NCBI RefSeq assembly: GCF_900163795.1
Contig: NZ_FWFD01000013.1
Coordinates: 124,001 to 188,000, forward strand
DNA length: 64,000 bases
Direction of reading: 5' to 3'
DNA from: Vagococcus fluvialis bH819
GTDB taxonomy: Bacteria > Bacillota > Bacilli > Lactobacillales > Vagococcaceae
Part shown: piece after piece, positions 4,998-28,831 of the stretch
Layout of the letters: every line of letters begins with the position of its first letter
Numbering within the stretch: the stretch's first letter is position 1
Translations under genes and position numbers: made by a program
Notes under the pieces: model-generated
What the model was told of the DNA's origin: nothing
The model's database searches: none
Seen by the model: only the letters and a program-made list of their open reading frames with translations

Positions 4998-5642
4998 ATG
5001 AAGATTTTACTAGCCGAAGATGATAAGCAAATGCAAAAAATATTAAAAATATACTTGGAAAATGAAGGCTATGAGGTGAGAGTGGCTTCTAATGGAGAAG
5101 AAGGTCTCGGTTTTGTAACTGAAGAAGAATTTGATTTAGTTATTCTAGATTGGATGATGCCGAAGATGGATGGTGTAACATTATGTCGAGAGATTAGACA
5201 AATGAATTTACCAGTAAAAATTATCATGTTAACAGCAAAAAATTCATCCACAGATGAATTGCGTGGTTTGGTAGCTGGAGCAGATGATTACATCTCGAAA
5301 CCTTTTGATATAGCGGTTCTCTTAGTTAGAATTAAAAAAATGATTAAATCAGAAAAAATATTAGCTTTTGATCAACTAACACTAAATCCTGAAACTCATG
5401 AAGTTAAAGTAACCAGTGACCTCATTAGTCTGACTAAAAAAGAATATAATCTACTTTATTATTTTATGCAAAATAAAAATATTATCCTAAGTCGAGAGCA
5501 ATTATTAGCAAATGTTTGGGGAATGAATTATGAAGGGGATATACGAACTGTTGATACTCATGTGAAAAGACTTCGCCAAAAAATTGGGAATCATTATATA
5601 GCAACTAAGGTAGGGATTGGTTATCTGATGGGTGAAAAATAA
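4998..5642 (+). CDS. OmpR/PhoB-family response regulator
   Basis: The protein has 214 residues. The receiver domain carries the acidic pair in LLAEDD, the phospho-acceptor Asp51 in ILDWMMPKMDG, the conserved Thr in MLTAKNS and the Lys in YISKPFD. A winged-helix DNA-binding domain follows from about residue 120 (LTKKEYNLLYYF, RTVDTHVKRLRQKI). The stop overlaps the kinase start by one base (TAATG), so the pair is translationally coupled. The TTGTCAC direct repeats in front of both operons of this island are its likely targets. Confidence 0.92.
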   Translation: MKILLAEDDKQMQKILKIYLENEGYEVRVASNGEEGLGFVTEEEFDLVILDWMMPKMDGVTLCREIRQMNLPVKIIMLTAKNSSTDELRGLVAGADDYISKPFDIAVLLVRIKKMIKSEKILAFDQLTLNPETHEVKVTSDLISLTKKEYNLLYYFMQNKNIILSREQLLANVWGMNYEGDIRTVDTHVKRLRQKIGNHYIATKVGIGYLMGEK

Positions 5643-7009
5643 TGACTAAACTCTCGAAAAAATTTATGATTGGAATTGGTCTGATTTTAATAATTACAGG
5701 ATTATCAGCTGTTTTAATTAATAAAAACTATGTTGCGAAGTATTACGTTAATCAGAAAAAAAATGAATTGAATGAGGTATCTGATGAATTTGTTTCTAAA
5801 ATAGCAAAAACTAATGTAGCAGAGGCCATTCAAACAATCGAAAATGATGAAAAAGTGATTATTGTCGAAACAGTAAAAGATGATGATAACGAAAAAGTTA
5901 ATAATGAGATAAGAGACTTATTTAATAAAAAAGGTATTGGCTTTAAAAAATTATGGTTATGGGATCAAGATTATGAGGATGTTATTAGTGGGATTGATCG
6001 CATTAGGTTATATGAACAAGAGAAATTAAACTACAGCGTGCTAGTTAAGTATCTTTCTCTAGATGAAGAAATATACGCCATTGCCATGATTGTTCCGAAT
6101 ATTGAAGATTCTTTTAGTATTGTGAATACTTTTTTTGCGATAACCATTGGTATTATGCTGGTACTATCTATGATATTTATTATTATTTTAGTTAGAAGAA
6201 TAATTAAACCTTTAAATGAATTTGAACAATTTGCTAAAAATATGGGAAATGGTCATTTTATAGCATTAAACATAGAAACAAAAGATGAATTAGAAGAGGT
6301 TGCCAATACTTTAAACAAAATGGGACAAGATGTTGTTTCTTATCAGGAAGAATTAACAGAAAAGAAACAGCAAATGGAAGATCTTTTGAATAATGTCGCT
6401 CATGATTTAAAAACACCAGTATCTTTAATTAAATTATACTCTGAGGGGATAAAAGATAATTTAGATGATGGGACGTTTGTTGAGACGATCATTGATCAAA
6501 GTACAGAGATGAATACGATGATTGAAAAAATATTACTAATTTCAAAAGTTGAAAAAATGACGATTGAGAAAATCAATTTTAATTTTTCAGAACAAATTAA
6601 TAGAGTAGTGAAAGAACATCTCTTTTTAATGAATGAGCGTCAAATTACTTTGGTGAGTGACTTAGAAAAAAATATTATGATTAATAGTAATGAAGAATGG
6701 CTAAATTCAATTCTTTCTAATTTGATTTCTAATAGTATAAAATATACTTCAAAAGATGAAATAAGCATAAATTTAGTTCAAATTAAAAATAATGTTATTT
6801 TTGAGATTTCTAATGAAGTAGCAAATACTGATTTAGATTTAAAACGTATTTGGACTCCGTACTATGTAGGGGAACAGTCAAGAAGTAAGGAACTATCTGG
6901 AACAGGGCTAGGATTATACCAAGTCAAAAAAATGGTGGATCAGTTAGGTTTTGAGATTAATGTTAAACTTGAGGGAAATAAAATTACCTTTAGATTAATT
7001 ATTAGATAA
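5642..7009 (+). CDS. Sensor histidine kinase of the TTGTCAC island
   Basis: The protein has 455 residues. A first transmembrane helix (about 8-27) is followed by an extracytoplasmic domain of about 130 residues, a second helix (about 163-186) and a HAMP-like linker (RRIIKPLNEF onward). The HisKA motif has His254 in NNVAHDLKTPVS. The ATPase domain has its N box at NLISNSIKYT and a G box at GTGLGLYQVKKM. It partners the response regulator just upstream. The medium-sized external domain suggests it senses an envelope signal directly; the neighbouring MurG-like and phosphoesterase genes point the same way, but the ligand is not known. Confidence 0.92.
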   Translation: MTKLSKKFMIGIGLILIITGLSAVLINKNYVAKYYVNQKKNELNEVSDEFVSKIAKTNVAEAIQTIENDEKVIIVETVKDDDNEKVNNEIRDLFNKKGIGFKKLWLWDQDYEDVISGIDRIRLYEQEKLNYSVLVKYLSLDEEIYAIAMIVPNIEDSFSIVNTFFAITIGIMLVLSMIFIIILVRRIIKPLNEFEQFAKNMGNGHFIALNIETKDELEEVANTLNKMGQDVVSYQEELTEKKQQMEDLLNNVAHDLKTPVSLIKLYSEGIKDNLDDGTFVETIIDQSTEMNTMIEKILLISKVEKMTIEKINFNFSEQINRVVKEHLFLMNERQITLVSDLEKNIMINSNEEWLNSILSNLISNSIKYTSKDEISINLVQIKNNVIFEISNEVANTDLDLKRIWTPYYVGEQSRSKELSGTGLGLYQVKKMVDQLGFEINVKLEGNKITFRLIIR

Positions 7010-7028: not shown

Positions 7029-7781
7029 ATGAAAATTTTAATAACAGGAGCAAGCGGAAATATTGGTTTAAATTTAACGAGCTATTTAGCACGACAACAT
7101 GAAGTGATTGCTACAGATATTAACTTAATGCCCTTAACAGAAATGTTTTCTCAAACTGAAAATATTGAAATCAAAAAATTAGATATTACTAATCAGGAAA
7201 GCTGTTTGTCTTTAATAGATGATACTGTGGATTGGGTGATTCATTTAGGCGGTATTCCACATCCAGATAGCGCATTTGAGGACTTACTAGATTTGAATAT
7301 AAAGGGTAGTTATCATGTTTTGAAATCGCTTGTGGGTAATAAAAAAACAAAAGTTATTGTGGCATCCAGTGCTCAAGTAAATGAAGGGCATCCTGTTGAT
7401 GTTCAAACAAATGAAAACATGTTAACTGCTCCTAAAAATTTGTATGGTGTTTCTAAAACTTATTTAGAGCAGCTAAGTCACTATTATGTTCATCAAAAAG
7501 GATTAACTGTTTTTGCTTTAAGAATAGGTGCATATGATGAAATTAAAAGAACAAATCAAAGTTTAAATCGCAGAGATTTGAGTGCGTATCTTGATCCAGA
7601 AGATTTTAATCATATGATAGATTGCTTACTGAATAATACAGTTGGTAAAAAATACGGTGTTTATAATTGTATTTCAGATAATACTTACAAACGCTTAGAT
7701 ATCACAAAAGCGCGAGAAGAACTTAATTATTCTCCAAAATTTGATGCGTTTAAATTAGCAAATTATCAATTTAGAGATTAA
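7029..7781 (+). CDS. NAD-dependent epimerase/dehydratase family protein
   Basis: The protein has 250 residues from ATG 7029, preferred over the in-frame ATG at 7020 because GAGAGG (7014-7019) directly abuts the latter. It has a Rossmann GASGNIG motif, HLGGIPHPD, SSAQVNEG and the YGVSK catalytic pair. Extended SDR enzymes of this type act on nucleotide sugars or uronates. It is the last gene of the phosphoesterase/two-component operon, starting 19 bp after the kinase stop. With the dehydratase at 1932 it is the second sugar-modifying enzyme of the island. The substrate is not defined. Confidence 0.8.
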   Translation: MKILITGASGNIGLNLTSYLARQHEVIATDINLMPLTEMFSQTENIEIKKLDITNQESCLSLIDDTVDWVIHLGGIPHPDSAFEDLLDLNIKGSYHVLKSLVGNKKTKVIVASSAQVNEGHPVDVQTNENMLTAPKNLYGVSKTYLEQLSHYYVHQKGLTVFALRIGAYDEIKRTNQSLNRRDLSAYLDPEDFNHMIDCLLNNTVGKKYGVYNCISDNTYKRLDITKAREELNYSPKFDAFKLANYQFRD

Positions 7782-7902
7782 TAAGATCACATCATATTTT
7801 CTAGATTTTGTTTCATTTTTTGAAGAATTAGATCATATGTAGTTAATAACTTTTTTGGATAAATTGTTTTAATATTTCCACCATATCCTAATAAATTATC
7901 GA

Positions 7903-7943
7903 GAAGAGGCTGACATTTTTTAGTCAGCCTCTTCTTTTTTTAT
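7903..7943 (+). terminator. Rho-independent terminator after the epimerase
   Basis: A perfect 12-bp stem (GAAGAGGCTGAC / GTCAGCCTCTTC) has an 8-nt loop and is followed by a T run. It closes the two-component operon. The preceding 120 bp (7782-7902) show nothing else recognisable. Confidence 0.92.
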
Positions 7944-7953
7944 TTCAAAAAAA

Positions 7954-7982
7954 TGTCCCTAAAACAGATGCTGAAACGTTAT
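7954..7982 (+). promoter_or_regulatory. Candidate ECF-type promoter upstream of the sigma factor gene
   Basis: TGTCCC (7954-7959) and CGTTAT (7977-7982) are separated by 17 bp, an arrangement like extracytoplasmic-function sigma promoters, which often end in a CGT-containing -10. No good sigma-A promoter is evident in the same interval. Autoregulation by the downstream sigma factor is inferred. Confidence 0.35.
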
Positions 7983-8014
7983 ATAGAGTATAGAGCAACG
8001 AAAGGATGTGTCAT

Positions 8015-8539
8015 ATGAAGAAAAAAAGGTTGTTTTTTGAGCGTCTCTATGAAGAGTACGAACAAAAAATATATCAAGTTGCTTTTTCAATTTTACATAA
8101 TGAAGAACAATCAGAGGATGCTACTCAAGATGTATTTGAAGAATTGTATATCTGTATTGATAAAATAATTAATTTTGAAGCAATCGATTTGAAAAAATTT
8201 ATTTTAAGAATATCAAAAAATAAGGCAATTGATATGTATAGAAAAAATAAAACACAAATAAAATATTTTAATGATTTTAAAGAACAAAAAGTAGAAGAGT
8301 ATTCAGAATCAAATGTTGAAGAAAAATTAGAGGAATTAATAACGAAGGATCAATTTAAGGAAATAGTAACATTACTTTCTAAAAAATCAGCGAAGTCATT
8401 TATTTATGTTGTTTATTATGGACTAACATTAAAAGAAGTAGCATTAATTTTAGATGAAAAAGAAGAAACAATAAAAAAAAGAGTCCAACGTGCAAAAGAA
8501 AAACTAAAAAATGTAATGGGAGGTTACTTAAGTGAGTAA
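8015..8539 (+). CDS. ECF-like RNA polymerase sigma factor
   Basis: The protein has 174 residues from ATG 8015, chosen because AAAGG at 8001-8005 is 9 nt upstream; the in-frame ATG at 8006 touches this site. Region 2 is visible in FERLYEEYEQKIYQVAFSILHNEEQSEDATQDVF. A region 4 helix-turn-helix follows in the last 50 residues (LTLKEVALILDEKEETIKKRVQRAKEKL). It lies in an operon with a membrane-spanning protein that starts within its last 8 bases, the usual arrangement of an ECF sigma factor with its anti-sigma factor. The inducing signal is unknown. Confidence 0.85.
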   Translation: MKKKRLFFERLYEEYEQKIYQVAFSILHNEEQSEDATQDVFEELYICIDKIINFEAIDLKKFILRISKNKAIDMYRKNKTQIKYFNDFKEQKVEEYSESNVEEKLEELITKDQFKEIVTLLSKKSAKSFIYVVYYGLTLKEVALILDEKEETIKKRVQRAKEKLKNVMGGYLSE

Positions 8540-9938
8540 AGATGATCAAAAAATAATAGAAGAATTTGCTGAAAAATTATCTTTAGAAGAATTTGATAAC
8601 GTACAAGACAGTCATCAGTTTTCAATAAAATACCAACATAAAAAAAATAAACTAAAAAAAAGAGTAGCTAAAAAAGGTCGTTTTACAGAATGGTCCACTC
8701 ACAAAATAGCGGTAGCTGCCATATTTATTATAGTTATTCCTACCACAGCCTATGGGGCGAAAAATTGGTATGAATGGTTAATTAATAAGAATAAACATGA
8801 GCTAACAATTAGTTTAAAAAATAATGTAGAGAAAAATAATGAAAAAAAATATTATCAATTGAGTTTACCAGTTATCCCTAAAGAGATGATACAAGAAGAT
8901 AACCATTTAAAGTATAAAAATAAAGCAAATGAAGATAGTATAATTTTTAATTTATGGAGAATTCGTAAAGAGATTAATTTTCAAGAGTTGTTCACTGAGT
9001 CTTATGAGAAAAAAAATATATCTGGACATAAAAGTATTATTCTCAAAAAGGCTGATGAGGAATTTAGTAATTTTAATCGAACGGTTTATATGGTATTTGA
9101 CAAGGAACAAATTTTAGTCGAAGCAACTGTTTCTAAAAATATGACAAATGACGAATTATTAAAAATATTAGAGAGTACTAGTCTGAAAGAAGTCTCAAAA
9201 GAAGAAAGTAACTATATATTTGATGAAGGTGATTTTGAAAAAAGAGTAGTAGATTCTAATTCAGTAAAAGAAGAATTAGTTAAGGGATTACCAAAAAGTA
9301 GTAAAAATTTATATCTATCTGATGAAAAAATTACTTATCATAATAAACAAAAGAAACAAAAACTATCATTTAAATTAAATAAAATAGAAGTGCTAGATAA
9401 TATTAAGCGTGTTTTAGATCAAAAACAGTTTAATCCAGAATCTCTAGAACACGTTAGAGCATTGAATATGCTAGATGAAAATGGTCAGTTAAATGAATAT
9501 AAACAAACAGTATATGAATTAGGTGATGGTGTAGACGAATTAAATAAAGTCGTAGAAGAAAAAGAAATTAAACCTAAATTTATTTACTTAACAGCGAGTG
9601 TGACTAATTTATCAAATAAAACAATAAAAGATTTATATATGACAGGACCTATTGTCTATTTTGAAGAAAAGATGAATAAATGGAACTATATAGATGATAA
9701 AAATAAAATGTTTCTGCCTCAATCTCAAACTTTAAACATTGACTATTTTGACGATGGTAAAGGCTCGTCACAAGAATTTTTAACTATAGAACCTAAAGAA
9801 ACAATAACTTACCGCTTTGGCTTTTTTGTGGATGAAGACAAGCTAGATAAAATGTTTTTACCTATAGTTCCGTATGACCATGAATATGATGCAATGAACT
9901 TAGATGACAATAGAATTTGGATGGATATAAGACAGTAA
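8532..9938 (+). CDS. Putative membrane-anchored anti-sigma factor (DUF4179-like)
   Basis: The protein has 468 residues from GTG 8532 with GGGAGG at 8518-8523, overlapping the sigma gene by 8 bp. A short cytoplasmic N-terminus of about 55 residues, rich in Lys and suitable for sigma binding, precedes a single transmembrane helix (about residues 57-75, IAVAAIFIIVIPTTAYGA). A large Lys/Glu-rich extracytoplasmic region of nearly 400 residues follows. The topology and position match anti-sigma factors of the DUF4179 type in Firmicutes. The external part is not otherwise recognised. The family assignment rests on architecture and context rather than a motif. Confidence 0.65.
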   Translation: MSKDDQKIIEEFAEKLSLEEFDNVQDSHQFSIKYQHKKNKLKKRVAKKGRFTEWSTHKIAVAAIFIIVIPTTAYGAKNWYEWLINKNKHELTISLKNNVEKNNEKKYYQLSLPVIPKEMIQEDNHLKYKNKANEDSIIFNLWRIRKEINFQELFTESYEKKNISGHKSIILKKADEEFSNFNRTVYMVFDKEQILVEATVSKNMTNDELLKILESTSLKEVSKEESNYIFDEGDFEKRVVDSNSVKEELVKGLPKSSKNLYLSDEKITYHNKQKKQKLSFKLNKIEVLDNIKRVLDQKQFNPESLEHVRALNMLDENGQLNEYKQTVYELGDGVDELNKVVEEKEIKPKFIYLTASVTNLSNKTIKDLYMTGPIVYFEEKMNKWNYIDDKNKMFLPQSQTLNIDYFDDGKGSSQEFLTIEPKETITYRFGFFVDEDKLDKMFLPIVPYDHEYDAMNLDDNRIWMDIRQ

Positions 9939-12445: not shown

Positions 12446-12970
12446 AAGGAGGCAATACTATGTCTTTAGATAATAAAAAAATCGTGGTCATTGGTGACCG
12501 TGATGGCATCCCAGGACTTGCTATTGAAACCTGTTTAGAAGGCACAACGACTGAAGTCGTTTTCTCTTCAACAGAATGCTTTGTCTGAACGGCAGCAGGT
12601 GCAATGGACTTAGAGAATCAACGTCGAGTGAAAGAAGCAGCTGAAAAATATGGTGCAGAAAATGTCGCCGTATTAATCGGAGCAGCAGAAGGCGAAGCAG
12701 CAGGATTAGCTGCAGAAACTGTCACAAACGGAGATCCAACTTACGCAGGTCCATTAACCAATCAACAGCTAGGTTTAGCTGTATACCATGTAGTAGAACC
12801 AGAATTCAAAGCATTTGTAGACGAAACAATATACGAAGACCAAATCGGCATGATGGAAATGGTTTTAGATGTAGACGATATCATTGAAGAAGTATCGAGT
12901 ATTAGGAAAGAATATTCGAAATATTAATTAAAGTAGTGAAAAAATCGTTTTGCTCTGAGCAACTGGAGGA
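12446..12970 (+). repeat. grdA duplication, copy 1 (gene plus flanks)
   Basis: About 525 bp, from AAGGAGGCAATACTATG to CTGGAGGA, recurs at 15655-16179 in direct orientation with an offset of 3209 bp. Homology covers the ribosome binding site, the gene and about 43 bp of 3' flank. The middle is almost identical, while several differences cluster in the last 30 bp of the coding region. Confidence 0.9.
12460..12927 (+). CDS. grdA: Glycine reductase selenoprotein A, copy 1 (UGA = Sec43)
   Basis: The reading frame of 155 residues contains an in-frame TGA at 12586-12588. It decodes as selenocysteine in CFVU (Cys40, Sec43), the redox motif of protein A, followed by [13 protein letters not shown] as in clostridial GrdA. 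Ordinary gene calling would start only at Met12604. GrdA receives the carboxymethyl group from component B as a Se-carboxymethyl selenoether and delivers it to component C. AAGGAGG lies 7 nt before ATG 12460. The downstream flank shows only a weak 3-bp hairpin next to the UGA, so the SECIS is not clear by eye. A near-identical copy lies at 15669. Confidence 0.95.
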
Positions 12971-13010: not shown

Positions 13011-14312
13011 ATGGCTAAATATAGAGTAGTTCATTATATCAATCAATTCTATGCTGGAATTGGTGGAGAAGAAAAAGCAGATATTAAACCAAGCACAAAA
13101 GCTGAAATCGTTGGACCTGGGATTGCTTTTAAAGGCGCTTTAGGTGAAGACGTAGAAATCGTTGGAACAGTTATTTGTGGGGATAGTTATTTTAATGAAA
13201 ATTTAGACTCAGCGTTAAAAGAAGTCATGGAAATGATTGCTTCATATAAACCAGATTTAGTAATTGCAGGGCCTGGATTTAATGCAGGTCGCTACGGAAT
13301 GGCTTGTGGAGCAGTTGCCAAAGCAGTCATGGAAGAGATGAATATTCCAGCTGTAACAGGTCTTTATGAAGAAAATCCTGGAACTGATATGTATAAAAAA
13401 GATGCGTACATCGTTCAAGTCGGAAATAGTGCGGCAACTATGCGGAAAGCTGTTCCAATTATCTCTAAATTAGGACTTAAATTATTAAATAAAGAAGCTG
13501 TGACTCCAGAAGAAGACAGCTATTTTGTACGTGGACGTAAAAATTATGAAACGTCATTCAGAGGATCTAAGCGTGCTGTAGATATGTTAGTAAGCAAACT
13601 AAAAGGTGAAGAGTTTGTGACAGAGTATCCGATGCCTGTTTTTGATAATGTTGAACCAGGTCAACCAGTTAAAGATATGAAACATGCCAAAATAGCTTTA
13701 GTAACATCTGGTGGTATTGTACCTAAAGGCAACCCGGATCATATTGAATCAAGTAGTGCTTCTAAATTTGGTAAGTATGACATTTCTAGTGTGACAGATT
13801 TAACAGAAAGTACCTACGAAACAGCACATGGTGGTTATGATCCAGTTTATGCGAATCAAAATGCAGACCGTGTTCTACCAGTAGACGTGTTACGTGAATT
13901 AGAACAAGCAGGCGAAATAGGTGAGATTTATCCATATTTCTATACAACTGTTGGTAATGGAACTTCTGTTGCCAATGCCAAAAAATATGCGGCTGAAATT
14001 GCAAAAGATTTAGTGGCAGACGGGGTAGATGCCGTTATATTAACATCCACCTGAGGTACCTGTACTCGTTGCGGTGCAACGATGGTAAAAGAGATTGAAA
14101 AAACAGGTATTCCAGTGGTTCATATTTGTACAGTCGTGCCAATTTCCCTAACAGTTGGAGCTAATAGAATTGTGCCAGCTATTGCGATTCCTCATCCACT
14201 TGGTAACCCAAGCCTGGATGAAAAAGAAGAGAAAAAACTTCGGATGAAATTGGTTAAAAAAGCTTTAAAAGCTTTAGAAACGCCAGTTGAAGAGCAAACT
14301 GTTTTTGAATAA
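13011..14312 (+). CDS. grdB: Glycine reductase component B gamma subunit GrdB (UGA = Sec348)
   Basis: The protein has 433 residues from ATG 13011 (GGAGG at 13000-13004); an upstream in-frame GTG extension lacks support. An in-frame TGA at 14052-14054 reads as Sec348 in the UGTCTRC motif, the selenocysteine-plus-CxxC signature of GrdB. Translation then continues 85 residues to TAA 14312. GrdB activates glycine bound to the GrdE pyruvoyl group and transfers the carboxymethyl group to GrdA. A compact hairpin 12 nt after the UGA is a good SECIS candidate. The gene is split in two if UGA is taken as stop. Confidence 0.95.
14066..14082 (+). promoter_or_regulatory. Candidate SECIS hairpin in grdB mRNA
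   Basis: CGTTGC (14067-14072) pairs with GCAACG (14076-14081) around a GGT loop, extended by one T-A pair, 11 nt after the Sec UGA. Position and size suit a bacterial selenocysteine insertion element recognised by SelB. Confidence 0.6.
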
Positions 14313-15654: not shown

Positions 15655-16179
15655 AAGGAGGCAATACTATGTCTTTAGATAATAAAAAAATCGTGGTCAT
15701 CGGCGACCGTGATGGCATCCCAGGACTTGCTATTGAAACCTGTTTAGAAGGCACAACGACTGAAGTCATTTTCTCTTCAACAGAATGCTTTGTCTGAACG
15801 GCAGCAGGTGCAATGGACTTAGAGAATCAACGTCGAGTGAAAGAAGCAGCTGAAAAATACGGTGCAGAAAATGTCGCCGTATTAATCGGAGCAGCAGAAG
15901 GCGAAGCAGCAGGATTAGCTGCAGAAACTGTCACAAACGGAGATCCAACTTACGCAGGTCCATTAACCAATCAACAGCTAGGTTTAGCTGTATACCATGT
16001 AGTAGAACCAGAATTCAAAGCATTTGTAGACGAAACAATATACGAAGACCAAATCGGCATGATGGAAATGGTTTTAGATGTAGACGACATCATTGAAGAA
16101 GTATCAAGTATCAGAAAAGAATACACGAAATACTAAACATGGTAGTGAAAAAGTCGTTTTGCTCTGAGTAACTGGAGGA
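15655..16179 (+). repeat. grdA duplication, copy 2 (gene plus flanks)
   Basis: Direct repeat of 12446-12970. Homology includes the upstream AAGGAGGCAATACT and the 3' stretch TCGTTTTGCTCTGAG followed by AACTGGAGGA. At 16179 the sequence diverges into a large hairpin. Confidence 0.9.
15669..16136 (+). CDS. grdA: Glycine reductase selenoprotein A, copy 2 (UGA = Sec43)
   Basis: This is a second, nearly identical protein A of 155 residues with TGA (Sec43) at 15795-15797 in the same CFVU motif. It differs from copy 1 at only two residues that I can see: Val34 to Ile, and Ser to Thr in the C-terminal KEYSKY. Having one copy beside grdB and another beside grdC suggests a dosage benefit for the shuttle protein, which must be present in excess over components B and C. 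The shared flanks show recent duplication or ongoing gene conversion. Confidence 0.95.
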
Positions 16180-19302: not shown

Positions 19303-19327
19303 TTCTTGGAATATCTTATTCCAAGAA
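19303..19327 (+). repeat. 25-bp near-palindrome, left copy (TCT centre)
   Basis: TTCTTGGAATA and TATTCCAAGAA arms flank the central trinucleotide TCT. The copy at 20820-20844 has the same arms but AGA in the centre, so the two are exact reverse complements of each other, i.e. an inverted pair flanking the recombinase gene. Upstream (19193-19302) is AT-rich with a possible -10 (TATAAT, 19224-19229) but no gene. Confidence 0.85.
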
Positions 19328-19472
19328 AATAAACAAAAATCAATCCCTATTATGGATAATATACAATACAAAAATTTTTTTATCAACTAAATATGTATTT
19401 TTTATAAAAAATACATAACTATTTAATTGATATATGTTTAATAAACCTATGTTTGTGGTTGATAATCATAAT

Positions 19473-19501
19473 AATTATTGATTTTTGGTGAAAGCCGTCA
19501 A
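19473..19501 (-). promoter_or_regulatory. Candidate leftward promoter inside the recombinase segment
   Basis: On the minus strand TTGACG (19501-19496) is followed after 17 bp by ATAATT (19478-19473). It would read leftward across the left 25-bp site towards the terminator at 19126-19192. After inversion it would point into the pilus operon. The -10 match is moderate. A Fur-like sequence (GATAATCATAATAATTATT, 19460-19478) overlaps. Confidence 0.3.
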
Positions 19502-19515
19502 GAAAGCCGTCAAAT
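19494..19515 (+). repeat. CCGTCAA tandem repeat, copy A
   Basis: GCCGTCAA is followed after 4 nt by GCCGTCAAAT. A related pair with 3-nt spacing occurs in the same orientation at 20759-20779, after the recombinase gene. These could be arm-type binding sites for the recombinase N-terminal domain. Confidence 0.6.
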
Positions 19516-19538
19516 TTTATAAAAAAAGGATATTTTAT

Positions 19539-20672
19539 ATGTCAAGACGAGGGGAAAATATTTATAAAAGAAAAGATGGTAGATGGGAAGGTCGTTATAA
19601 AAAAGGAAGAAAAGATAATGGCAAATTAAAATACGGATATGTTTATGGTAAAACATATAAAGAAACAAAAATAAAATTAAATGAACTAAAATATAATTAT
19701 CAAAAAAATAATTATCAAAAAGATTATTATTATGGTACAGTCGAGAATTGGCTATCTTTATGGATGCTAGAAAATGTAGAGAACAGAGTTAAGTTATCAA
19801 CTTATGCAAGTTATCAGTATAAATTAAATAGATATATAATTCCTTATATTGGTACAAAAGAATTACTTGATTTAACAACAAATGATATTGAAAATTTAAT
19901 TAAAGTTTTAGAAAAAAAAGAGTTATCAGCTAGTACAATTAATGTAAGTATTGGGATTGTCAAAAAGAGTCTTAAACACGCATTTAATAATAATTATATT
20001 CCTAAAGATATTAGTTTGAATATTAGAAGTTTGAGCAACAAAATTAAAAAAATAAGGGCACTTTCAATGAGTGAACAAAAATTATTAGAAACCATAGCAA
20101 ATCATGATGAACATGGACTACCATGCTTAATTGCGTTATATACAGGATTAAGAATTGGTGAAATTTCAGGTTTGAAATGGTCGAATATTGATTTTGAAAA
20201 AAACATTATAAAAGTTCAATATACTTATCAAAGAGTACCTATTATGGGACTTGGTAGTAAATCAAAACTAGTCTTAAGTGATACTAAAACAATTGGCTCA
20301 AATCGTATTGTACCTATAGGAAAAGATACTAAAAAAAGATTACTAAAATGGTTCAAAATAAAAGGACATCAAAAATTTGTTTTTGAAGTTAATGGTCGAC
20401 CAGTGGAGCCAAGATTACTAGGATATCGCTTTAAAAGAATGATTGATAATACAGAATTGAAAAATGTTCATTTCCATCAACTCAGACATACTTTTGCAAC
20501 GAGATGTTTAGAGGCTCAAGAAAATATAAGTGTTATCTCTTCTATTTTGGGGCATCAGTCAGTGAAAATGACGTTAGATATTTATACTGATGCTTTGGTT
20601 GGACAAAAGAGAATAATGATCCATCAAATGGAAAAAAGACAAATGGAATACTATGAAAAAAAGATTATTTGA
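19539..20672 (+). CDS. Tyrosine recombinase / integrase (Tn916/phage type)
   Basis: The protein has 377 residues from ATG 19539, with AAAAGGA 8 nt upstream; an in-frame TTG at 19485 would extend through the CCGTCAA repeats. A small arm-binding N-terminal domain (ENIYKRKDGRWEGRYKKG) and a SAM-like core-binding domain lead to the catalytic domain. Its residues are Arg205 (TGLRIGE), His313-x-x-Arg316 (HQLRHTF), a His in GHQS and the nucleophile Tyr349 (DIYTDAL). No phage, excisionase or mobility gene lies nearby. It is flanked by an inverted pair of 25-bp sites and precedes the pilus operon, which suggests a DNA-inverting role. Confidence 0.88.
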   Translation: MSRRGENIYKRKDGRWEGRYKKGRKDNGKLKYGYVYGKTYKETKIKLNELKYNYQKNNYQKDYYYGTVENWLSLWMLENVENRVKLSTYASYQYKLNRYIIPYIGTKELLDLTTNDIENLIKVLEKKELSASTINVSIGIVKKSLKHAFNNNYIPKDISLNIRSLSNKIKKIRALSMSEQKLLETIANHDEHGLPCLIALYTGLRIGEISGLKWSNIDFEKNIIKVQYTYQRVPIMGLGSKSKLVLSDTKTIGSNRIVPIGKDTKKRLLKWFKIKGHQKFVFEVNGRPVEPRLLGYRFKRMIDNTELKNVHFHQLRHTFATRCLEAQENISVISSILGHQSVKMTLDIYTDALVGQKRIMIHQMEKRQMEYYEKKII

Positions 20673-20711
20673 TCTATTTAAATTGAAATATAGAATCAAT
20701 AAAAATAAAAA

Positions 20712-20757
20712 AACAATGCAAAATTAAACTTATTTTGCGTTGTTTTTTTATTTTTTA
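20712..20757 (+). terminator. Terminator after the recombinase
   Basis: AACAATGCAAAAT (20712-20724) pairs with ATTTTGCGTTGTT (20732-20744) with one wobble, followed by a long T run. Confidence 0.88.
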
Positions 20758-20758
20758 A

Positions 20759-20779
20759 GCCGTCAACTGACCGTCAAAT
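20759..20779 (+). repeat. CCGTCAA tandem repeat, copy B
   Basis: GCCGTCAA, CTG, ACCGTCAAAT: the same orientation as copy A at 19494 but with one base less between the units. Confidence 0.6.
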
Positions 20780-20819
20780 AGATTAATATATGTGATTAAG
20801 TCTTTGTTAAACAAGTGAT

Positions 20820-20844
20820 TTCTTGGAATAAGATATTCCAAGAA
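20820..20844 (-). repeat. 25-bp near-palindrome, right copy (AGA centre)
   Basis: Exact reverse complement of 19303-19327. It lies 180 bp upstream of the first pilus gene. The interval to that gene (20845-21010) holds no ORF; a possible promoter is TTGGAA inside the palindrome, 16 bp, GATAGT. Confidence 0.85.
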
Positions 20845-21024
20845 GATAGTCTTCACAGACTACTAAAAGATAATATCAAAAAAATATGAATTTTTATCGA
20901 TTTTTTGAAAAAAATTTAGTAGCAATCCTAAAAAAAGAAAGGAGGAAAAAAATTATTAAATTTCAATTTGTGATTCAATAATTGAAGAGAGAGTTAAAGA
21001 AGATCTAAAGAAAGGAGGATGACA

Positions 21025-24000
21025 TTGGCTAATAAAAGAATTAATTGGATGATCTTTCTTGTTATTTTTTTAACAATCACTACTCAATTTTTTGGAATCA
21101 AAAAAGTTAATGCTGTGAATAGTACTAGAGAAAATCAACAAACAATTGAAAGTCCCGAATTATATATGGAAACGAATGTTGAAAAAGTTAATGATCAGTA
21201 TACTTGGCATGTGTTTTTCAATAAAAAGAAGCAAGAAAAATCAAACGAATATCAAATGAAATTCAAAATAAAATCAGATGGAGAACACGTTGAATATAAT
21301 TCTGAACTACATTTTGATAGCAATTTTTATAAAGGTGATTTGAGTTTAATAGAAGTGAATAGTAGTGAGCCGGATGGTTCAGTTGATTTTATTACTGATA
21401 ATCCCAATATCAGTATTGAAATTCAAATGGACCATAAAAATATCGAAAGCGAAAGCATAAATAAAGATATTCTAAAAAAAAACATTGAAGGTCCACACTA
21501 CTTAACCTTTAATGACATTGATAATATAAAGGAACAGATTACGTTTCAAAAAGAAAACAAAAAAACAAACAAAATGGAAATAAATAATTTGAGAACTATT
21601 CAGGACCCCTTTGAGTATCAAAATAATCAATTAGGTAATTATATCAATCACTCTACGAACCAATATATTGGTGGTTTAACTAATCAACAATTAATTAATT
21701 TTAATTTTGGATTTGAAAATACTGAAGGTAATCAAAAAGTAACTAATGTCATAAATAAGGGGACTGGCTTTGATCGAGGCTATCACGACTACGGTAACGC
21801 GCTATTAAAAAAAACAGTGATGCCTTCTAATGAAGAAAATCAATTTAAGATTCAGTTAGATCTTCTAAGTGGCGTCGAAATAGAAAAAAAACCGCTTGAT
21901 ATTGTCTTAGTTTTAGATAAATCTTCTAGTATGAAAAATAATAATCGAAATAATAATATGATCGCTGCTGTAGAGGAATTTACAAAAGAACTATTTGAAG
22001 AAAAAGACGGCGATAATATCCGCGTTGCATTAGCGAACTACTGGGGAATGCCGGAGAGCGAACGAGGAACTACAAAAGAAATTCAATCTGAAGTATCCAA
22101 ATTTAAAAATGGAGCTTTTAGTTCCGATCCAAAAGAAATAAATTCGAGTAAGGTTTTAACAAGGGATCCAGTATCTGGGACACCGATAACAATGGGCTTG
22201 AAAGCTGGATCGGATGTTCTATACAATACTGATTTTGATTATGGAGCAAGACCGGAAGCAGAAAAAATTATGGTCGTTTTAACAGATGGTGCTCCTTATA
22301 CTGCAATTAAGGAAAAAAGAAATGATCATAAAGTTCAAGTTAATGAGAAGAGTAAAGACCACTATGTTTTAACTTATTCTCAAAAAAGCTATGAAAATAA
22401 AGATCGATTTTATGAAAATAAGGGCAGCCAAGAAGTAGCCGATGCAACAGTACATTATTCGAATAAATTAAAATCTGATTATCCAGATATCAGTGTTTAC
22501 TCAATTGGATTTGGTATAAAAGGTGTAACCAATGCTATCAATACGATGGAAAGAATTGCTTCTAGCGCGGATAAATTTTATTTAGCAGACGATGGGACCA
22601 GCGAAATTGTAGAAGTATTTAAAGATATTGCAATTTCTTTTACTAGGCCTTTGTTAAATGCAGAAGTCATTGATCCAATGAGTCAATATGTTGACTACAA
22701 AGGAAATTTAAAGTCTTATGCCTTAATGGTAAAAGATGGAGATATTAAAGTTATTTCTCCCAATGCAGCTAACTTCCCAAAATATGCTAAAAATATAATA
22801 ACTGAAGAAAATGATTCAGAACTTCATTTATCCAATATTACGATGGGAAATTCATTGAAACAATTAGATGGGTATCGTATCGAATATGAAGTTGAGTTGA
22901 AGCCAGAGTATAAAGACGGGAAATTTTACCCAACAAATGGGTCAACTTATGTTTTTAATAAGAGAAAAGATTATTATCACTATGCTGTGCCTTCAATAAA
23001 ACATCCAGTTTCTCAAATGAGTATTCCGTTTGAAAAAAAATGGATAGATGGCGAAAATCAGTGGAATTTAAGAAAAGATATAAGTTTTCAGCTCCAAAGA
23101 AAAAATAATCAAGGTATTTGGACAGATGTTCCAGGACAATTGAAGAACATAAAAAAAGAGTCCAGTGGTGAAAATCTAAAAGGGCAATTTGAAAAGGTAC
23201 CTATTGAAGAATTCGGAAAATTAATTTCTTACAGAATTATTGAAATATCGGATGGCAAGCAACATGTTTATGGCTATTCTAATCCCAAGATATCAAAAGA
23301 TAGTGTAGACGGAAGTATGAAGGATAAAAATATAGTAATCACTAATAAATTATTAACAACAGATTTAATGCTAGAAAAAGTAAATGAAGCTAATCAAGTA
23401 ATTCCAGGTGTTGAATTTACTTTATTTAGGAAAAATCCAGAAGAACAATTGATAGATAAAATAACTTCTGATCAGCAAGGAAAAATAAATTTTTTGAATC
23501 TCCCGGTAGGAAATTATGTATTAAAAGAGACAAAACCAGCCTTAGGATATAAGAAGCATAAAGAAATCACTTTCGAAATAGTCGAAAAAGAAATGAATAA
23601 GCTTAGTATTGAAGGATTACCAAAAGATAACAAAATAGTAAATGAGTTAGAAGATTTTAATTTAACTGTTGAAAAAATAGACAATTTCAATAGACCAGTT
23701 TCCAATGTCATATTCAAATTATCAGGTAAAAATTTTTTAGGTGAGTCTTATGAAGTTGAAAAAGAATCTGATAACCCAAATAGTAATATTTTTACTTTTA
23801 AAAATTTAAGGCCTGGAAATTATCAATTGGAAGAAACATTAAGTCCAAATGAGTATGTAGGTTTAGAAAAACCGATTAGTGTAGTAATAACTAAAGAAGG
23901 GATTGTAACTGTAGATGGAGAAGAACAATCTAAAGTTATAACAGAGATGGGGAACAATATATCGATTCAAGTAGTGAATCAAAGAAAAGGTATATTACCA

Positions 24001-24117
24001 CATACAGGTGGAACTAAAAACCCAATTCGTAGAAATTTAATATACGCTATTTCATTACTAGTTTTAATTTTGGGAGTTTTTTATTTGTATTATAATCGAA
24101 AGGAGAAGTTAGTATGA
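21025..24117 (+). CDS. Pilus tip adhesin: vWA domain, Cna-B repeats, LPHTG anchor
   Basis: The protein has 1030 residues from TTG 21025 (AAAGGAGG 6 nt upstream; the ATG at 21019 touches it). A signal peptide occupies about residues 1-30. A von Willebrand A domain has the MIDAS motif DKSSS (298-302) and the later TDGAP. Two or three Cna-B/SpaA domains follow (PGVEFTLFRK; GNYVLKETKPALGYKKH; GNYQLEETLSP), able to form isopeptide bonds. It ends with LPHTG (991-995), a hydrophobic helix and a basic tail. The order of domains matches Gram-positive pilus tip proteins such as RrgA or EbpA. It binds host or environmental ligands at the pilus tip. Confidence 0.92.
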   Translation: MANKRINWMIFLVIFLTITTQFFGIKKVNAVNSTRENQQTIESPELYMETNVEKVNDQYTWHVFFNKKKQEKSNEYQMKFKIKSDGEHVEYNSELHFDSNFYKGDLSLIEVNSSEPDGSVDFITDNPNISIEIQMDHKNIESESINKDILKKNIEGPHYLTFNDIDNIKEQITFQKENKKTNKMEINNLRTIQDPFEYQNNQLGNYINHSTNQYIGGLTNQQLINFNFGFENTEGNQKVTNVINKGTGFDRGYHDYGNALLKKTVMPSNEENQFKIQLDLLSGVEIEKKPLDIVLVLDKSSSMKNNNRNNNMIAAVEEFTKELFEEKDGDNIRVALANYWGMPESERGTTKEIQSEVSKFKNGAFSSDPKEINSSKVLTRDPVSGTPITMGLKAGSDVLYNTDFDYGARPEAEKIMVVLTDGAPYTAIKEKRNDHKVQVNEKSKDHYVLTYSQKSYENKDRFYENKGSQEVADATVHYSNKLKSDYPDISVYSIGFGIKGVTNAINTMERIASSADKFYLADDGTSEIVEVFKDIAISFTRPLLNAEVIDPMSQYVDYKGNLKSYALMVKDGDIKVISPNAANFPKYAKNIITEENDSELHLSNITMGNSLKQLDGYRIEYEVELKPEYKDGKFYPTNGSTYVFNKRKDYYHYAVPSIKHPVSQMSIPFEKKWIDGENQWNLRKDISFQLQRKNNQGIWTDVPGQLKNIKKESSGENLKGQFEKVPIEEFGKLISYRIIEISDGKQHVYGYSNPKISKDSVDGSMKDKNIVITNKLLTTDLMLEKVNEANQVIPGVEFTLFRKNPEEQLIDKITSDQQGKINFLNLPVGNYVLKETKPALGYKKHKEITFEIVEKEMNKLSIEGLPKDNKIVNELEDFNLTVEKIDNFNRPVSNVIFKLSGKNFLGESYEVEKESDNPNSNIFTFKNLRPGNYQLEETLSPNEYVGLEKPISVVITKEGIVTVDGEEQSKVITEMGNNISIQVVNQRKGILPHTGGTKNPIRRNLIYAISLLVLILGVFYLYYNRKEKLV

Positions 24118-24791
24118 AAATAAAAAAAAGATATTTTTTATTAATAATATTAGTTCTTTCTTTCACAATAGGTTTTTCAAATAAAAAAAATAGTTATGCA
24201 GAAAATAATTCCTCCAAAATACAATTTATCTTGCATAAGTCGACCTCTCAAGAAGAAAAAAATGAAATACAGCAAAAATTAGATGATATTAGTTTTGAGG
24301 TTTATGATGTAACACTATACGTAGAAAAGCAAAATAATAAAGAAAAAACGATGAGTCGTGTAATGAATATGCCAAAAGAGCAAATTCAAAAAGAAATATT
24401 AAGTGAAGCGAAGTTTATTAGAGAAATTAGAGCAGATGAATTTGCTGGTGAAACAGGTGTTGCAGAACTATCTTTGTCAAATACGTTTGATGGACAGTCT
24501 ATTTTATTTATTGAAAAAGGGAATCGAAAAATAAAATATTATCAAACAATGTTAGTTATACTACCAGTTGAGAATCCAGTAAAAGCCAATGAGTATCTTT
24601 CGACAATACACTTGTATCCTAAAAAAGTAAACGATGAAAAAGAAAAATTAAAAGAAAAAGATCCACCGACTTTAAAGAAAAACCATAAGAATCTCCCAAA
24701 AACTGGTGAAGAAAAATCAGTTTTTGTATTTTTAGGATTTTTATTAATGTCGTCTTCATTTTATTTTAAAATGAAAAAACAAAGTAATTAA
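24114..24791 (+). CDS. Small LPKTG pilin, likely basal/anchor subunit
   Basis: The protein has 225 residues and overlaps the tip gene by 4 bp (ATGA). A signal peptide (about 1-30, ending near SYAEN) leads to one Ig-like pilin domain with the YPK pilin motif (IHLYPKKV). A sorting signal LPKTG (194-198), helix and basic end follow. The size and single domain suggest the basal pilin that links the fibre to peptidoglycan; a minor shaft pilin is the alternative. The family is recognised from architecture and operon rather than specific residues. Confidence 0.8.
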   Translation: MKIKKRYFLLIILVLSFTIGFSNKKNSYAENNSSKIQFILHKSTSQEEKNEIQQKLDDISFEVYDVTLYVEKQNNKEKTMSRVMNMPKEQIQKEILSEAKFIREIRADEFAGETGVAELSLSNTFDGQSILFIEKGNRKIKYYQTMLVILPVENPVKANEYLSTIHLYPKKVNDEKEKLKEKDPPTLKKNHKNLPKTGEEKSVFVFLGFLLMSSSFYFKMKKQSN

Positions 24792-24820
24792 AAAAGTATC
24801 GGAAAGTTGAGGAATATGAA

Positions 24821-26410
24821 ATGAAAAAAATGAGAAAAGTTTGGAATTTAATTTTTTCAATGGTTGTCTTTTTACCATTATTAACAAGTCTATTTGGAGG
24901 TATAACGGCTAATGCTGCTGATATTCCTGACAACGTTGATGTAACAATACATAAGAGAATATACAAAGAAGGAGATACTAAACCAGAAGGAAAAGACGCT
25001 CAAAATACAGGTAATTTAATGGAGTTTGGTGGTAAGCCTTTTGAGGGAGTTGAATTTACTGTTTATGATATTTCAAAAGAATATTATGATTTAATGAAAG
25101 TTGAGAATGCTAATCAAGAAGATGTAAGTAAAGAATTAAGTAATAAGTATGTTACTCCAGATGCAGGTGCAACTAACAAAATCACATCAATTATAACTGA
25201 TGCTGAAGGCTTAGCTGTATTTTCTAAATTGCCAACAAAATCAGCGGAGCTATCTGATGATAAGCAAAAAATAGATGCTGTCTATGTTTTTGTAGAAACA
25301 AAAACTCCAGATTCAATTACAATCAGTAAAAAATCAGCACCAATCGTTTTATCAATGCCAGTTTTTGCATTTGAAAATGATACTTATGATACAGAAAATC
25401 CGTTAGAAAATGTTCATTTATATCCAAAAAATGAGACTACTACAGATAAAAAAACTGTTAGTAATTTAGATCAATTTGATAAAGTTGAAGTTGGTGGTAA
25501 AACATTTTGGAATTTAGTAACTGGATCAGTTATTGAATTTGATTTAGATTTAGCTTTACCAGCTGATATGACAAAAACAGAAAGTTATTCAGTATTAGAT
25601 ACACCTTCTGAAGGATTAGAGTTTATTGAAACACCATTTGTAGTATCAGGAATTAACAATGAAGGTGAGTCAAAAGACCTAATTGCTGGGACAGATTATA
25701 ATGTTAAAAAAGAAGGAAATGGTTTCCAATTTGATTTAATTATGACAAGTGATACAGTTAAAAGTTTAAATGGTGGTAAATTAAAAATTAGTTATAGCAT
25801 GAAATTAACTGCTGAAGTAAGACCAGATGAGCTTCAAAACAACAGCGCAACTGTTTCTGTTGACAATAAACCACAACCATCAATTACACCAAAAGATCCA
25901 GAAGTACCGGTTGTCTTTGGAACAGGTGGTAAGAAATTTATCAAAACAGATTCTCACAATGGTGATGGCTTAGAAGGCGCAGAATTTATCGTGAAAAAAG
26001 GTAATGAATTTGCTGAATTTGAAGTAAACAAAAAAGGCGAATATGCGTTTGTTAAATGGACAAATGAAAAAAATGAAGCTACAAAAATTGTTTCTGCAGC
26101 AAAAAATAACAAATATGATTTAACAGTTGGTAGTTTTTCAGTTATTGGTCTTAAACAGGGCGGATATCAATTGGAAGAGGTAAAAGCACCTTCTGATAAA
26201 TATGTTAAATTAACTAAAGATGTGACATTTGATGTTGTTCAAGGATCATATGAGGGAACTAAGAATTTAGGCGAAGTAAAAAATACACCTAAAGGAATCT
26301 TACCATCAACTGGTGGTAACGGAATTTATGCCTTTTTAGCAATTGGTTCATTAATGATGGCTTCAGCTTATTTTTGGTTCAAAAAAGCAAATAATACAAA
26401 AAGAGCATAG
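24821..26410 (+). CDS. Major pilin (SpaA/SpaH-type isopeptide pilin, LPSTG)
   Basis: The protein has 529 residues. A signal peptide runs to about residue 32. Its N-terminal domain contains the pilin motif VHLYPK (sortase nucleophile Lys), the middle is a D2-type fimbrial isopeptide domain, and a C-terminal Cna-B-like domain has the E-box YQLEEVKAP. LPSTG sits at 494-498 before a hydrophobic helix. Class C sortase joins the pilin-motif Lys of one subunit to the LPSTG Thr of the next. Length and motifs match major shaft pilins of enterococci and streptococci. It lies 29 bp after the small pilin. Confidence 0.92.
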   Translation: MKKMRKVWNLIFSMVVFLPLLTSLFGGITANAADIPDNVDVTIHKRIYKEGDTKPEGKDAQNTGNLMEFGGKPFEGVEFTVYDISKEYYDLMKVENANQEDVSKELSNKYVTPDAGATNKITSIITDAEGLAVFSKLPTKSAELSDDKQKIDAVYVFVETKTPDSITISKKSAPIVLSMPVFAFENDTYDTENPLENVHLYPKNETTTDKKTVSNLDQFDKVEVGGKTFWNLVTGSVIEFDLDLALPADMTKTESYSVLDTPSEGLEFIETPFVVSGINNEGESKDLIAGTDYNVKKEGNGFQFDLIMTSDTVKSLNGGKLKISYSMKLTAEVRPDELQNNSATVSVDNKPQPSITPKDPEVPVVFGTGGKKFIKTDSHNGDGLEGAEFIVKKGNEFAEFEVNKKGEYAFVKWTNEKNEATKIVSAAKNNKYDLTVGSFSVIGLKQGGYQLEEVKAPSDKYVKLTKDVTFDVVQGSYEGTKNLGEVKNTPKGILPSTGGNGIYAFLAIGSLMMASAYFWFKKANNTKRA

Positions 26411-26442
26411 AATAAACAAATAAATAAAAGTAAATAAAAAGA

Positions 26443-26487
26443 TGAGGGGCGATGACGATACTGTTGGTATTTATGTCATAGCCTCTT
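26443..26487 (+). terminator. Hairpin between pilin and sortase genes
   Basis: GAGG...GATGAC and GTCAT...GCCTC can form an imperfect stem around a loop of about 17 nt. T residues come only after a further gap. It may lower expression of the sortases relative to the major pilin. Confidence 0.4.
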
Positions 26488-26510
26488 AATTTATATTAGT
26501 TTTTTTTGAG

Positions 26511-27722
26511 GTGATTAAAATAATTAGGAAAAATAAAAATGAAAGAATTAATGTGGTTTTACAATCTTCAATGATGATATTATTTGTATTAGGAGCGATT
26601 ATATTTAGTTATCCTTTCATTGCAGATTCAATTAATAATTATTATGATCAAAAAAATCTAGAAAAATTTCAAGATGCAAATAATAAAGAATCAGATAATA
26701 TTAGAAAAGAGCGATTAAAAGAACTAGAAGAAGAAAATAAAAAAGAAAAATTAGAAAAAGGTATTTTAAAAGATCCTTTCAAAGAAATAAATTTAGAAGA
26801 AAAAAATATTGATAAAAACTATTTAAAAAAACATCAAATTGGAGCGATTTATATCCCCACTATTAATGTAAGTTTACCGCTTTTTGATGAAACGAATAGT
26901 GAATTATTAGAAGTAGGGGCAACGGTTCTTCAAGGCACCTCGTATCCAATTGGAGGTATGAATACTCACTCAGCAATTACTGGGCATAGTGGTTTGAGTA
27001 ATAAAAAGTTATTTACTGATGTTGAAAAATTAAAAAAGAAAAATGAATTCATAGTAGATGTTTATGGACAGAAAAACGCATATGAAATTTTTGATATAAA
27101 AGTTGTTAAGCCAGATGCTATTGATAAGTTAGATATTCAAAAGGGCAAAGAGTTAGTTACATTAGTTACGTGTACCCCTTATGCTGTTAATACTCATCGC
27201 CTGTTAGTCACTGGGAAAAGAGTACCTATTAAAAAAAATGAAATAAGTCAACAAATTAAAAAAGCTGAAAATTATCATAAACGAAAATTTTATTCTTTTT
27301 TTGTAGGGATACCAATTATTTTATCGTTAATCATTTATTGGTTTTGGTGGAAAATAAGATTTTATAAAAGTACAAAAAAATTGTATGAATTATCTTTTTA
27401 TATAATGGAAAATAAAAAACCTATTAAAGGTGTGGTCTTTCAATTGGTTCATAAAAACAATAAATATTCAGAAAAAAATCGTCAAGTAAAAAGTAATAAA
27501 AAAGGATTAGTCAAATTTAAAAAAGTATTTGGTGGAAAATATGACATTGTAGTAGTTAATGAAGAAAATATCCCTAAAATAAAAGCTAGAAGTTATAGGT
27601 TATCAGATAAAAATTTTGTTATTGTTTCACCTAAAAGTTTGCTATCTGTAAGAAAAAAAAGAAATAGAATTTATACTATTGACCTTAAATCAAAGGAGAA
27701 AAAATGGCTAAGAAGAATGTGA
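26511..27722 (+). CDS. Class C sortase 1 with C-terminal Cna-B-like tail
   Basis: The protein has about 403 residues. A basic N-terminus, a TM helix (about 20-42), a lid segment with the DPF motif (LKDPFKE) and a catalytic core with His159 (TGHSGL), Cys221 (TLVTCTPY) and Arg230 (NTHRLLVTGKRV) are the class C signature. A second TM (about 263-285) follows. Unusually, a tail of about 115 residues then continues; it resembles a Cna-B module (KPIKGVVFQL, KGLVKFKKVFGGKYDIVV) and by topology should be cytoplasmic. The start is uncertain: GTG 26511 abuts GAG, so a rare start near 26520 is possible. It polymerises the pilins upstream. Confidence 0.87.
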   Translation: MIKIIRKNKNERINVVLQSSMMILFVLGAIIFSYPFIADSINNYYDQKNLEKFQDANNKESDNIRKERLKELEEENKKEKLEKGILKDPFKEINLEEKNIDKNYLKKHQIGAIYIPTINVSLPLFDETNSELLEVGATVLQGTSYPIGGMNTHSAITGHSGLSNKKLFTDVEKLKKKNEFIVDVYGQKNAYEIFDIKVVKPDAIDKLDIQKGKELVTLVTCTPYAVNTHRLLVTGKRVPIKKNEISQQIKKAENYHKRKFYSFFVGIPIILSLIIYWFWWKIRFYKSTKKLYELSFYIMENKKPIKGVVFQLVHKNNKYSEKNRQVKSNKKGLVKFKKVFGGKYDIVVVNEENIPKIKARSYRLSDKNFVIVSPKSLLSVRKKRNRIYTIDLKSKEKKWLRRM

Positions 27723-28831
27723 AGTCACAACTATTAATTAGAATCATTTTTTTCACAGGAACGCTTGTTATGTTTTATCCATTTTATATTAATTCTTTAA
27801 ATAATTTTATTGATTCAATTAGAATCGAGAACTACCAAGAGAAAAGTAAACAAGAATTAAAAAAGCAAAGAGAGGAGTTAGTTGAGAAGAATAAAAAAAT
27901 TGCGGAGTCGGGAATGACAATGACAGAAGATGTTTTTAATCAGCCTAGTACTAAAAATGATAATCGAGATGACATATATTTGAAAAAGCATTACCTTGGA
28001 AAAGTAAATATACCAAAAATCAGAATAGAAGTACCTTTGTTTGATACAACAAACTCTAGAACACTTGATGTAGGAGCAACAGTTGTTGATGGAACATCCT
28101 ATCCTGTTGGAGAAAAAAATAACCATGCTGTTATTTCTGCACATAGAGGGCTACCTAATAGAGAATTATTTACGCATCTTCCTAAATTGAAAAAAAAGGA
28201 TATTTTTTTATTAGAACTTCCTGATGAAACCTTAGCATATGAGGTTAAAAATATTAGTGTGGTTGAACCAAATGAAACAAGCTCATTATTGATAGTTGAT
28301 AATCAAGATTTGGTTACATTAGTTACATGCACACCTTATATGATTAACTCTCATCGCTTACTTGTGACTGGTAAGAGGGTGCCATATCAAAATAAGGTTA
28401 AAAAAGATAAAAAAAAACAGGATAAATTTCGAAAGTTAAAAGAAATATTGATCATTATTTTGTCAATTGGTTTTATTTTATTTTTTATTTTTAATTTGGT
28501 TAATTTTTTTAAACGGATCAATTTGAGTAAAAGAAAATTTAAGCTGACTATTAAAGTAACTGGCGCTTGTTTAAATGACAAAGTAGATTTATATATAACT
28601 AATAAAAAAATAAAAAAGACTGGAAATAGAATAGGGAAAAATAATAAACGGATATTAAAGTATTCAAACTTGTCAAGTGATGAACTTGAATTAAATTTAA
28701 ATAATAGTTTACTTTTAAAGATAAGAGTAAAAAATAAAAAAGGTGATTTTAAAATATATAAAGTAGATCAAAAAGCTTTAAAATATAGTTACAATAATAA
28801 TAAAAATGAAATTAAAATAAATTTGCGATAA
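27704..28831 (+). CDS. Class C sortase 2 with C-terminal beta-rich tail
   Basis: The protein has 375 residues and overlaps sortase 1 by 19 bp (AAAGGAG before ATG 27704). Layout: TM1 (about 10-29), lid region with DVFNQPS in place of a DPF/DPW motif, His147 (SAHRGLPNRELF), Cys209 (TLVTCTPY), Arg218 (NSHRLLVTGKRV), and TM2 (about 245-268). A basic tail of about 100 residues with alternating hydrophobic strands follows, again predicted cytoplasmic. Two pilus sortases in tandem are common; one may polymerise and the other attach the tip or base. The missing lid motif suggests a different substrate gate from sortase 1. Confidence 0.87.
   Translation: MAKKNVKSQLLIRIIFFTGTLVMFYPFYINSLNNFIDSIRIENYQEKSKQELKKQREELVEKNKKIAESGMTMTEDVFNQPSTKNDNRDDIYLKKHYLGKVNIPKIRIEVPLFDTTNSRTLDVGATVVDGTSYPVGEKNNHAVISAHRGLPNRELFTHLPKLKKKDIFLLELPDETLAYEVKNISVVEPNETSSLLIVDNQDLVTLVTCTPYMINSHRLLVTGKRVPYQNKVKKDKKKQDKFRKLKEILIIILSIGFILFFIFNLVNFFKRINLSKRKFKLTIKVTGACLNDKVDLYITNKKIKKTGNRIGKNNKRILKYSNLSSDELELNLNNSLLLKIRVKNKKGDFKIYKVDQKALKYSYNNNKNEIKINLR

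Follow-up and report, generated by a model that had tools for sequence, protein, structure and literature searches.

A candidate self-contained invertible promoter, built around a Tn916-type integrase, upstream of a sortase-pilus operon in Vagococcus fluvialis

The window analyzed here, a stretch of 64,000 nucleotides from V. fluvialis bH819, contains a recombinase gene that is framed by inverted repeats and lies directly in front of a pilus operon. The features of the recombinase segment, hereafter called the cassette, and of the operon are as follows (positions are those of the window).

19303 to 19328, no strand assigned: left inverted core site, TTCTTGGAATA TCT TATTCCAAGAA(A)
19358 to 19386, minus strand: outward promoter-like sequence TTGATA-17-TATATT, from a consensus scan and family enrichment
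19494 to 19513, plus strand: left arm-type pair, GCCGTCAA twice, 12 nt apart, just 5' of the recombinase start
19539 to 20672, plus strand: tyrosine recombinase, 377 aa, Int_Tn916-like, from Pfam domains, catalytic residues, a structure match and a model
20705 to 20751, plus strand: terminator-like hairpin with a T-run, 3' of the recombinase gene (1 found, 0.4 expected)
20760 to 20777, plus strand: right arm-type pair, CCGTCAA twice
20819 to 20844, no strand assigned: right inverted core site, (T)TTCTTGGAATA AGA TATTCCAAGAA
21019 to 24117, plus strand: pilus tip protein, 1032 aa, VWA and GBS104-like Ig domains, LPxTG
24114 to 24791, plus strand: minor pilin, 225 aa, LPxTG, GramPos_pilinD1
24821 to 26410, plus strand: backbone pilin, 529 aa, LPxTG, with GramPos_pilinD1, SpaA and Gram_pos_anchor domains
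26511 to 27722, plus strand: sortase 1, Sortase domain (2e-22)
27704 to 28831, plus strand: sortase 2, Sortase domain (8.8e-23)

The two inverted repeats are 26 nt long, 100% complementary and separated by 1490 nt. Each consists of the arms TTCTTGGAATA and TATTCCAAGAA around three nucleotides, which read TCT in the left site and AGA in the right site. The sequence-only reading of this DNA had described exact inverted copies at 19303 and 20820 with an asymmetric 3-nt core, and both points hold, the perfect match extending over 26 nt at 19303-19328 and 20819-20844. With three mismatches allowed, the site pattern has two matches in the window (0 expected, from 100 shuffles); with at most two mismatches, no further copy was found in the genome or in 59 relatives. 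The recombinase is the only open reading frame of at least 60 aa between the repeats. The ~1.5-kb segment thus encloses one intact tyrosine recombinase and, as had been claimed, no phage or conjugative cargo. No tRNA was found in the window.

The right site ends 174 nt upstream of the operon, which spans positions 21019-28831. Domain searches identify its products as the tip protein, the minor pilin, the backbone pilin and the two sortases, so that the earlier placing of the site pair upstream of a pilus operon is borne out. Five other pilus operons of the same genus (L035, L036, L037, L038 and L039) have no adjoining recombinase in the stretch examined, which indicates that such operons do not as a rule include the switch. 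An empty site was not found: the two same-genus relatives in which the neighboring grdD is present carry other genes after grdD. Elsewhere in the window there is a glycine reductase cluster, in which the reading frames of GrdA and GrdB (at ~12460-12927 and ~13020-14312) continue through in-frame TGA codons, and the contexts of these codons, CFVU and UGTCTRCG, are the expected ones. The genome also has a tRNA-Sec match above the Rfam cut-off, pointing to selenoproteins in a Lactobacillales genome. The C-terminal reading frame of GrdA occurs in this one cluster as two nearly identical copies (12604-12927 and 15813-16136).

The recombinase, starting at the ATG at 19539, matches the Pfam families Phage_integrase (6.8e-25) and SAM_3 (3e-11). 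The residues expected of a tyrosine recombinase are all present (Arg-205, Lys-250, His-313, Arg-316, His-339 and Tyr-349), and they are kept in 83-85 of 85 copies of the protein. Both by sequence and by fold, the closest solved structure is the Tn1549 Int. The arm-binding domain at the N terminus of Int_Tn916 subgroup members is made up of three strands and a helix, and Pfam sometimes misses it (PMC8138268). The AlphaFold2 model of the recombinase has this arrangement at its N terminus, with strands at residues 8-10, 16-24 and 30-37 and a helix at residues 40-58. Judged by these best hits, the recombinase resembles the integrases of Tn916 and Tn1549.

A search of 395 genomes of the order gave 27 with close homologues, mostly from one genus in another family. 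In that genus the recombinase is present in many copies: 58 in six genomes and ~122 in fifteen others, or 6-13 per genome, which amounts to ~180 cassette copies across 21 genomes of one order. Named homologues are carried by megaplasmids of E. gilvus and of E. raffinosus and by one plasmid that is recorded as E. faecalis. The comparative set consisted of 162 homologous loci, and many of the family loci occupy matching positions in different species.

The recombinase is framed by inverted repeats in 136 of the 162 loci. The repeat score, defined as matches minus twice the mismatches with a threshold of 17, ranges from 17 to 37 in these loci, compared with a mean of 10.8 and a maximum of 15 in 60 dinucleotide-shuffled controls. 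Flanking inverted recombination sites, as found in invertons, are thus present in the window (26 nt, 100%) and in most homologues. Over 25 nt of the sites, the inverted match is better than the direct match in all 136 loci. The two copies of a site differ in only one of 952 cells at the seven central positions, and mismatches increase outwards. A theme TTTCTTG...CAAGAAA is common to many sites, and most cassettes have their own sequence. Among cassettes with recombinases that are 72-98% identical, 279 of 341 differing site columns are altered in both copies, a count taken over cassette pairs that share ancestry and are not independent. This paired change is the pattern that would be expected from strand exchange between the two sites.

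A second set of repeats lies inside the sites. Of the 136 cassettes, 131 have CCGTCA on the 5' side of the recombinase and 123 have it on the 3' side. Its positions are fixed: the 5' copies lie ~44 and ~32 nt ahead of the recombinase start, and the 3' copies ~45-62 nt ahead of the right site. The motif is often paired, with a spacing of 11-12 nt, and has a single orientation, the reverse complement being found in 6 of the 136 cassettes only. Paired repeats inside both ends resemble the arm-type sites of lambda-type integrases. The 26 homologues without inverted repeats provide a natural negative control, as 14 of them lack CCGTCA at either end. Nine have it at both ends, and among those of the nine that were examined, one (L134) has a good repeat slightly beyond the search range.

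Some individual homologues are of interest in their own right. In eight loci (L188, L192, L196, L199, L200, L201, L251 and L256), representing a gene context conserved in many genomes, the recombinase homologue has neither inverted repeats nor CCGTCA. A distant Ruminococcus homologue (L010) is flanked by exact inverted copies of TTTCGTCAATTTCGTCCAT at 1830-1848 and 3194-3212 and is perhaps a related switch with a different layout. On a mobilizable plasmid recorded as E. faecalis (L088, LR962555.1), both sites and the arm repeats are present at ~7750-9250, followed by disrupted sequence and then by a gene for a 1554-aa LPXTG protein of Ig-like domains.

The sequence-only reading had also pointed to a leftward promoter inside the segment. 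The sequence TTGATA-17-TATATT is indeed present ~30 nt inside the left site, and it faces away from the pilus operon as assembled, but the scan of the window alone is not above chance (the region has 15 such sites, against an expectation of 16.5). What supports this part of the reading is the family. Between the left site and the recombinase, 55 non-redundant cassettes have a mean outward promoter score of 9.34, compared with 6.46 in shuffled sequence (p 8e-18), and 29 of the 55 match a strict outward-promoter consensus, compared with 9% in shuffles. In several of the family promoters a perfect TTGACA is situated 17 nt from a good -10 box. Four control regions of the same 55 cassettes (the same region reversed, the inner 3' region and both outer flanks) show no such enrichment, nor was the recombinase gene found to have an enriched promoter of its own. 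The analogous position of the family promoters supports the weaker candidate promoter of the window. Across these cassettes, as in invertons, a promoter within the segment would face the flanking operon in one of the two orientations. For the window, the predicted ON state places the -10 box ~229 nt upstream of the start codon of the tip gene.

In most loci, a surface operon is situated 3' of the cassette. Within the multi-copy genus, the first downstream gene usually codes for a protein of 220-260 aa with an OmpR-type C-terminal DNA-binding domain; when the first and second downstream proteins were scanned, 28 of 57 contained this domain. Genes for large secreted proteins come next; the domains of some of these are WxL, Ig-like or of an adhesive, pectate-lyase-like type. 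An assignment of the first downstream genes as WxL proteins was considered and rejected, most of the products being OmpR-type winged-helix proteins. The copies in E. gilvus and E. raffinosus adjoin WxL and SipW-type matrix genes. The cassette of the window precedes its sortase-pilus operon without an OmpR-type regulator.

In 127 of the 136 loci, including the window, the recombinase faces the operon and the promoter faces away from it; three loci appear flipped and six are ambiguous. On this basis, the 127 loci are predicted to be in the OFF state. Synteny reveals opposite orientations at two homologous loci, so that both orientations occur between species. L205 is inverted relative to L193 and L252, and L154 relative to L158, L253 and L179; in both cases the breakpoints are at the repeats and the recombinases are intact. 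Both flanks are retained, in exchanged positions with respect to the inner segment, whose alignment stops at the repeats: for instance, positions 4010-5500 of L205 align to 4563-6048 of L193, with the repeats at 4011-5500 and 4561-6051. A suspicion that the L154 recombinase was broken by a stop codon and the segment locked was rejected, since the stop is the natural C terminus. The third apparent flip (L073) was assigned by gene similarity alone and has a broken recombinase gene. The strains of E. raffinosus showed no orientation difference at two loci. Together with the single orientation of 127 of the 136 loci, this indicates that inversion is rare or seldom fixed.

The third apparent flip is found in the nearest same-genus relative (L009/L073), in which the recombinase gene is frameshifted, yet framed by inverted sites of 26-28 nt. 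The decayed copy occupies positions 9719-11305 of L073 with both sites intact, and a resolvase-like gene and a gene for a 1096-aa adhesin-like protein are situated on its left side. This copy is possibly stuck in the flipped state.

Taken together, the segment 19303-20844 is very probably a self-contained invertible promoter that is inverted by the integrase it encloses, OFF as assembled and ON after inversion. The inversion by a resident recombinase that the sequence-only reading proposed remains the best-supported reading, given the repeats, the concerted sites, the arm repeats, the promoter enrichment and the two natural flips. From the nucleotide data we infer that the enclosed integrase is the inverting enzyme, which state is ON and which OFF, what the arm repeats do and how the pili are affected. 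In the proposed mechanism, the enclosed Tn916/Tn1549-type integrase would recombine the two inverted core sites and thereby invert the segment, and its N-terminal domain would bind the CCGTCA pairs inside both ends to aid recombination. In the assembled orientation the promoter would face away from the operon, and the hairpin at 20705-20751 after the recombinase gene would shield the operon from recombinase transcripts, leaving the pili OFF. After inversion, the same promoter would read across the right site into the tip-backbone-sortase operon. Because the arm sites move with the segment, both states would have equivalent sites. The excess of predicted OFF loci is therefore more likely to reflect infrequent switching, or selection against a costly ON state, than directional arms; infrequent switching is suggested by the recombinase gene having no promoter enrichment.

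A real inversion with reversed polarity is unlikely. In that case the operon would be ON as assembled, transcribed either by read-through of the recombinase transcript or from a promoter near the right site, and inversion would silence it. The recombinase faces the operon in 127 of the 136 loci, which is compatible with co-transcription, but neither the inner 3' region nor the region outside the right site is enriched for operon-facing promoters, the window recombinase gene is followed by the terminator-like hairpin, and the sole enriched promoter faces the opposite way.

Less probable still is a mobile element, miniature or relic, that consists of a Tn916-like integrase and its two transposon ends and excises instead of inverting. 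Conjugative transposons have arm repeats inside both ends, as the cassette does, and the enzyme resembles the Tn1549 Int. However, a small mobile element was rejected on the sites, which are inverted in 136 of 136 loci; in place of the direct ends and the excision or transfer genes of an integrative or conjugative element, there is a single gene between inverted ends. The many loci at the same position across species and the two natural inversions also argue against it, as does the identity of the crossover sequences at the two ends, which Tn1549 does not require (PMC5871717). It is scarcely credible that the repeats are operators, bound by a protein that regulates its own gene and the operon without recombination. 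The near-palindromic sites do adjoin a promoter, and the start of the recombinase gene is closely preceded by arm repeats, but nearly every copy of the enzyme retains the catalytic residues, the two members of each private site pair evolve together, and the orientation differences break at the sites.

For the family as a whole, we regard it as somewhat better than an even chance that a domesticated Tn916-type integrase has multiplied into independent switches, each with a private site pair, at 6-13 per genome and mostly in front of an OmpR-like regulator and adhesins. If so, a clonal population could explore many combinations of surface coat. The cassette would pack enzyme, promoter and sites into 1.5 kb, with a transposon-type integrase turned regulator. 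The orientations suggest that pili and adhesins are mostly OFF in sequenced cultures and that phenotype tests could therefore easily overlook them. A literature search among openly accessible journal articles turned up no description of the family.

Switches that work by inversion are familiar from Bacteroidota and Clostridia. Like the gut invertons identified with PhaseFinder, the cassette has a candidate promoter between inverted repeats near surface and integrase genes; that survey of a defined gut community reported a median of zero invertons per genome in its Bacillus-like Firmicutes and does not mention Enterococcus (PMC11892184). As in fimS of Escherichia coli, a tyrosine recombinase would flip a promoter ahead of a pilus operon, but fimS is ~0.3 kb with the FimB and FimE genes outside and controls chaperone-usher pili, whereas the cassette is 1.5 kb with the gene inside and the pili of the window are sortase-assembled. 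The cwpV and flagellar switches of Clostridioides difficile also involve a tyrosine recombinase (RecV), inversion at ~21-bp repeats and Gram-positive surface genes. The gene for RecV, however, is at another locus, and the promoter of cwpV is outside a segment that acts by terminator control (PMC2784873). With Tn916 and Tn1549 the cassette shares the closest structure, the N-terminal fold, arm-type repeats inside the ends and 11-bp AT-rich core arms; in contrast to these elements, it has no conjugation genes or cargo, its crossover sequences are identical, and it would invert rather than transpose. Like Hin of Salmonella, it has a recombinase gene and a candidate outward promoter inside the invertible segment (PMC2784873). 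Hin is a serine recombinase, whereas the cassette has a Phage_integrase domain and arm-type repeats and targets pili and adhesins; with a tyrosine enzyme, it would work like Hin without being a member of the Hin family. What we rate as new here is the combination: a putative invertible promoter that carries its own recombinase, as in the Hin system, with a Tn916-type integrase as that enzyme.
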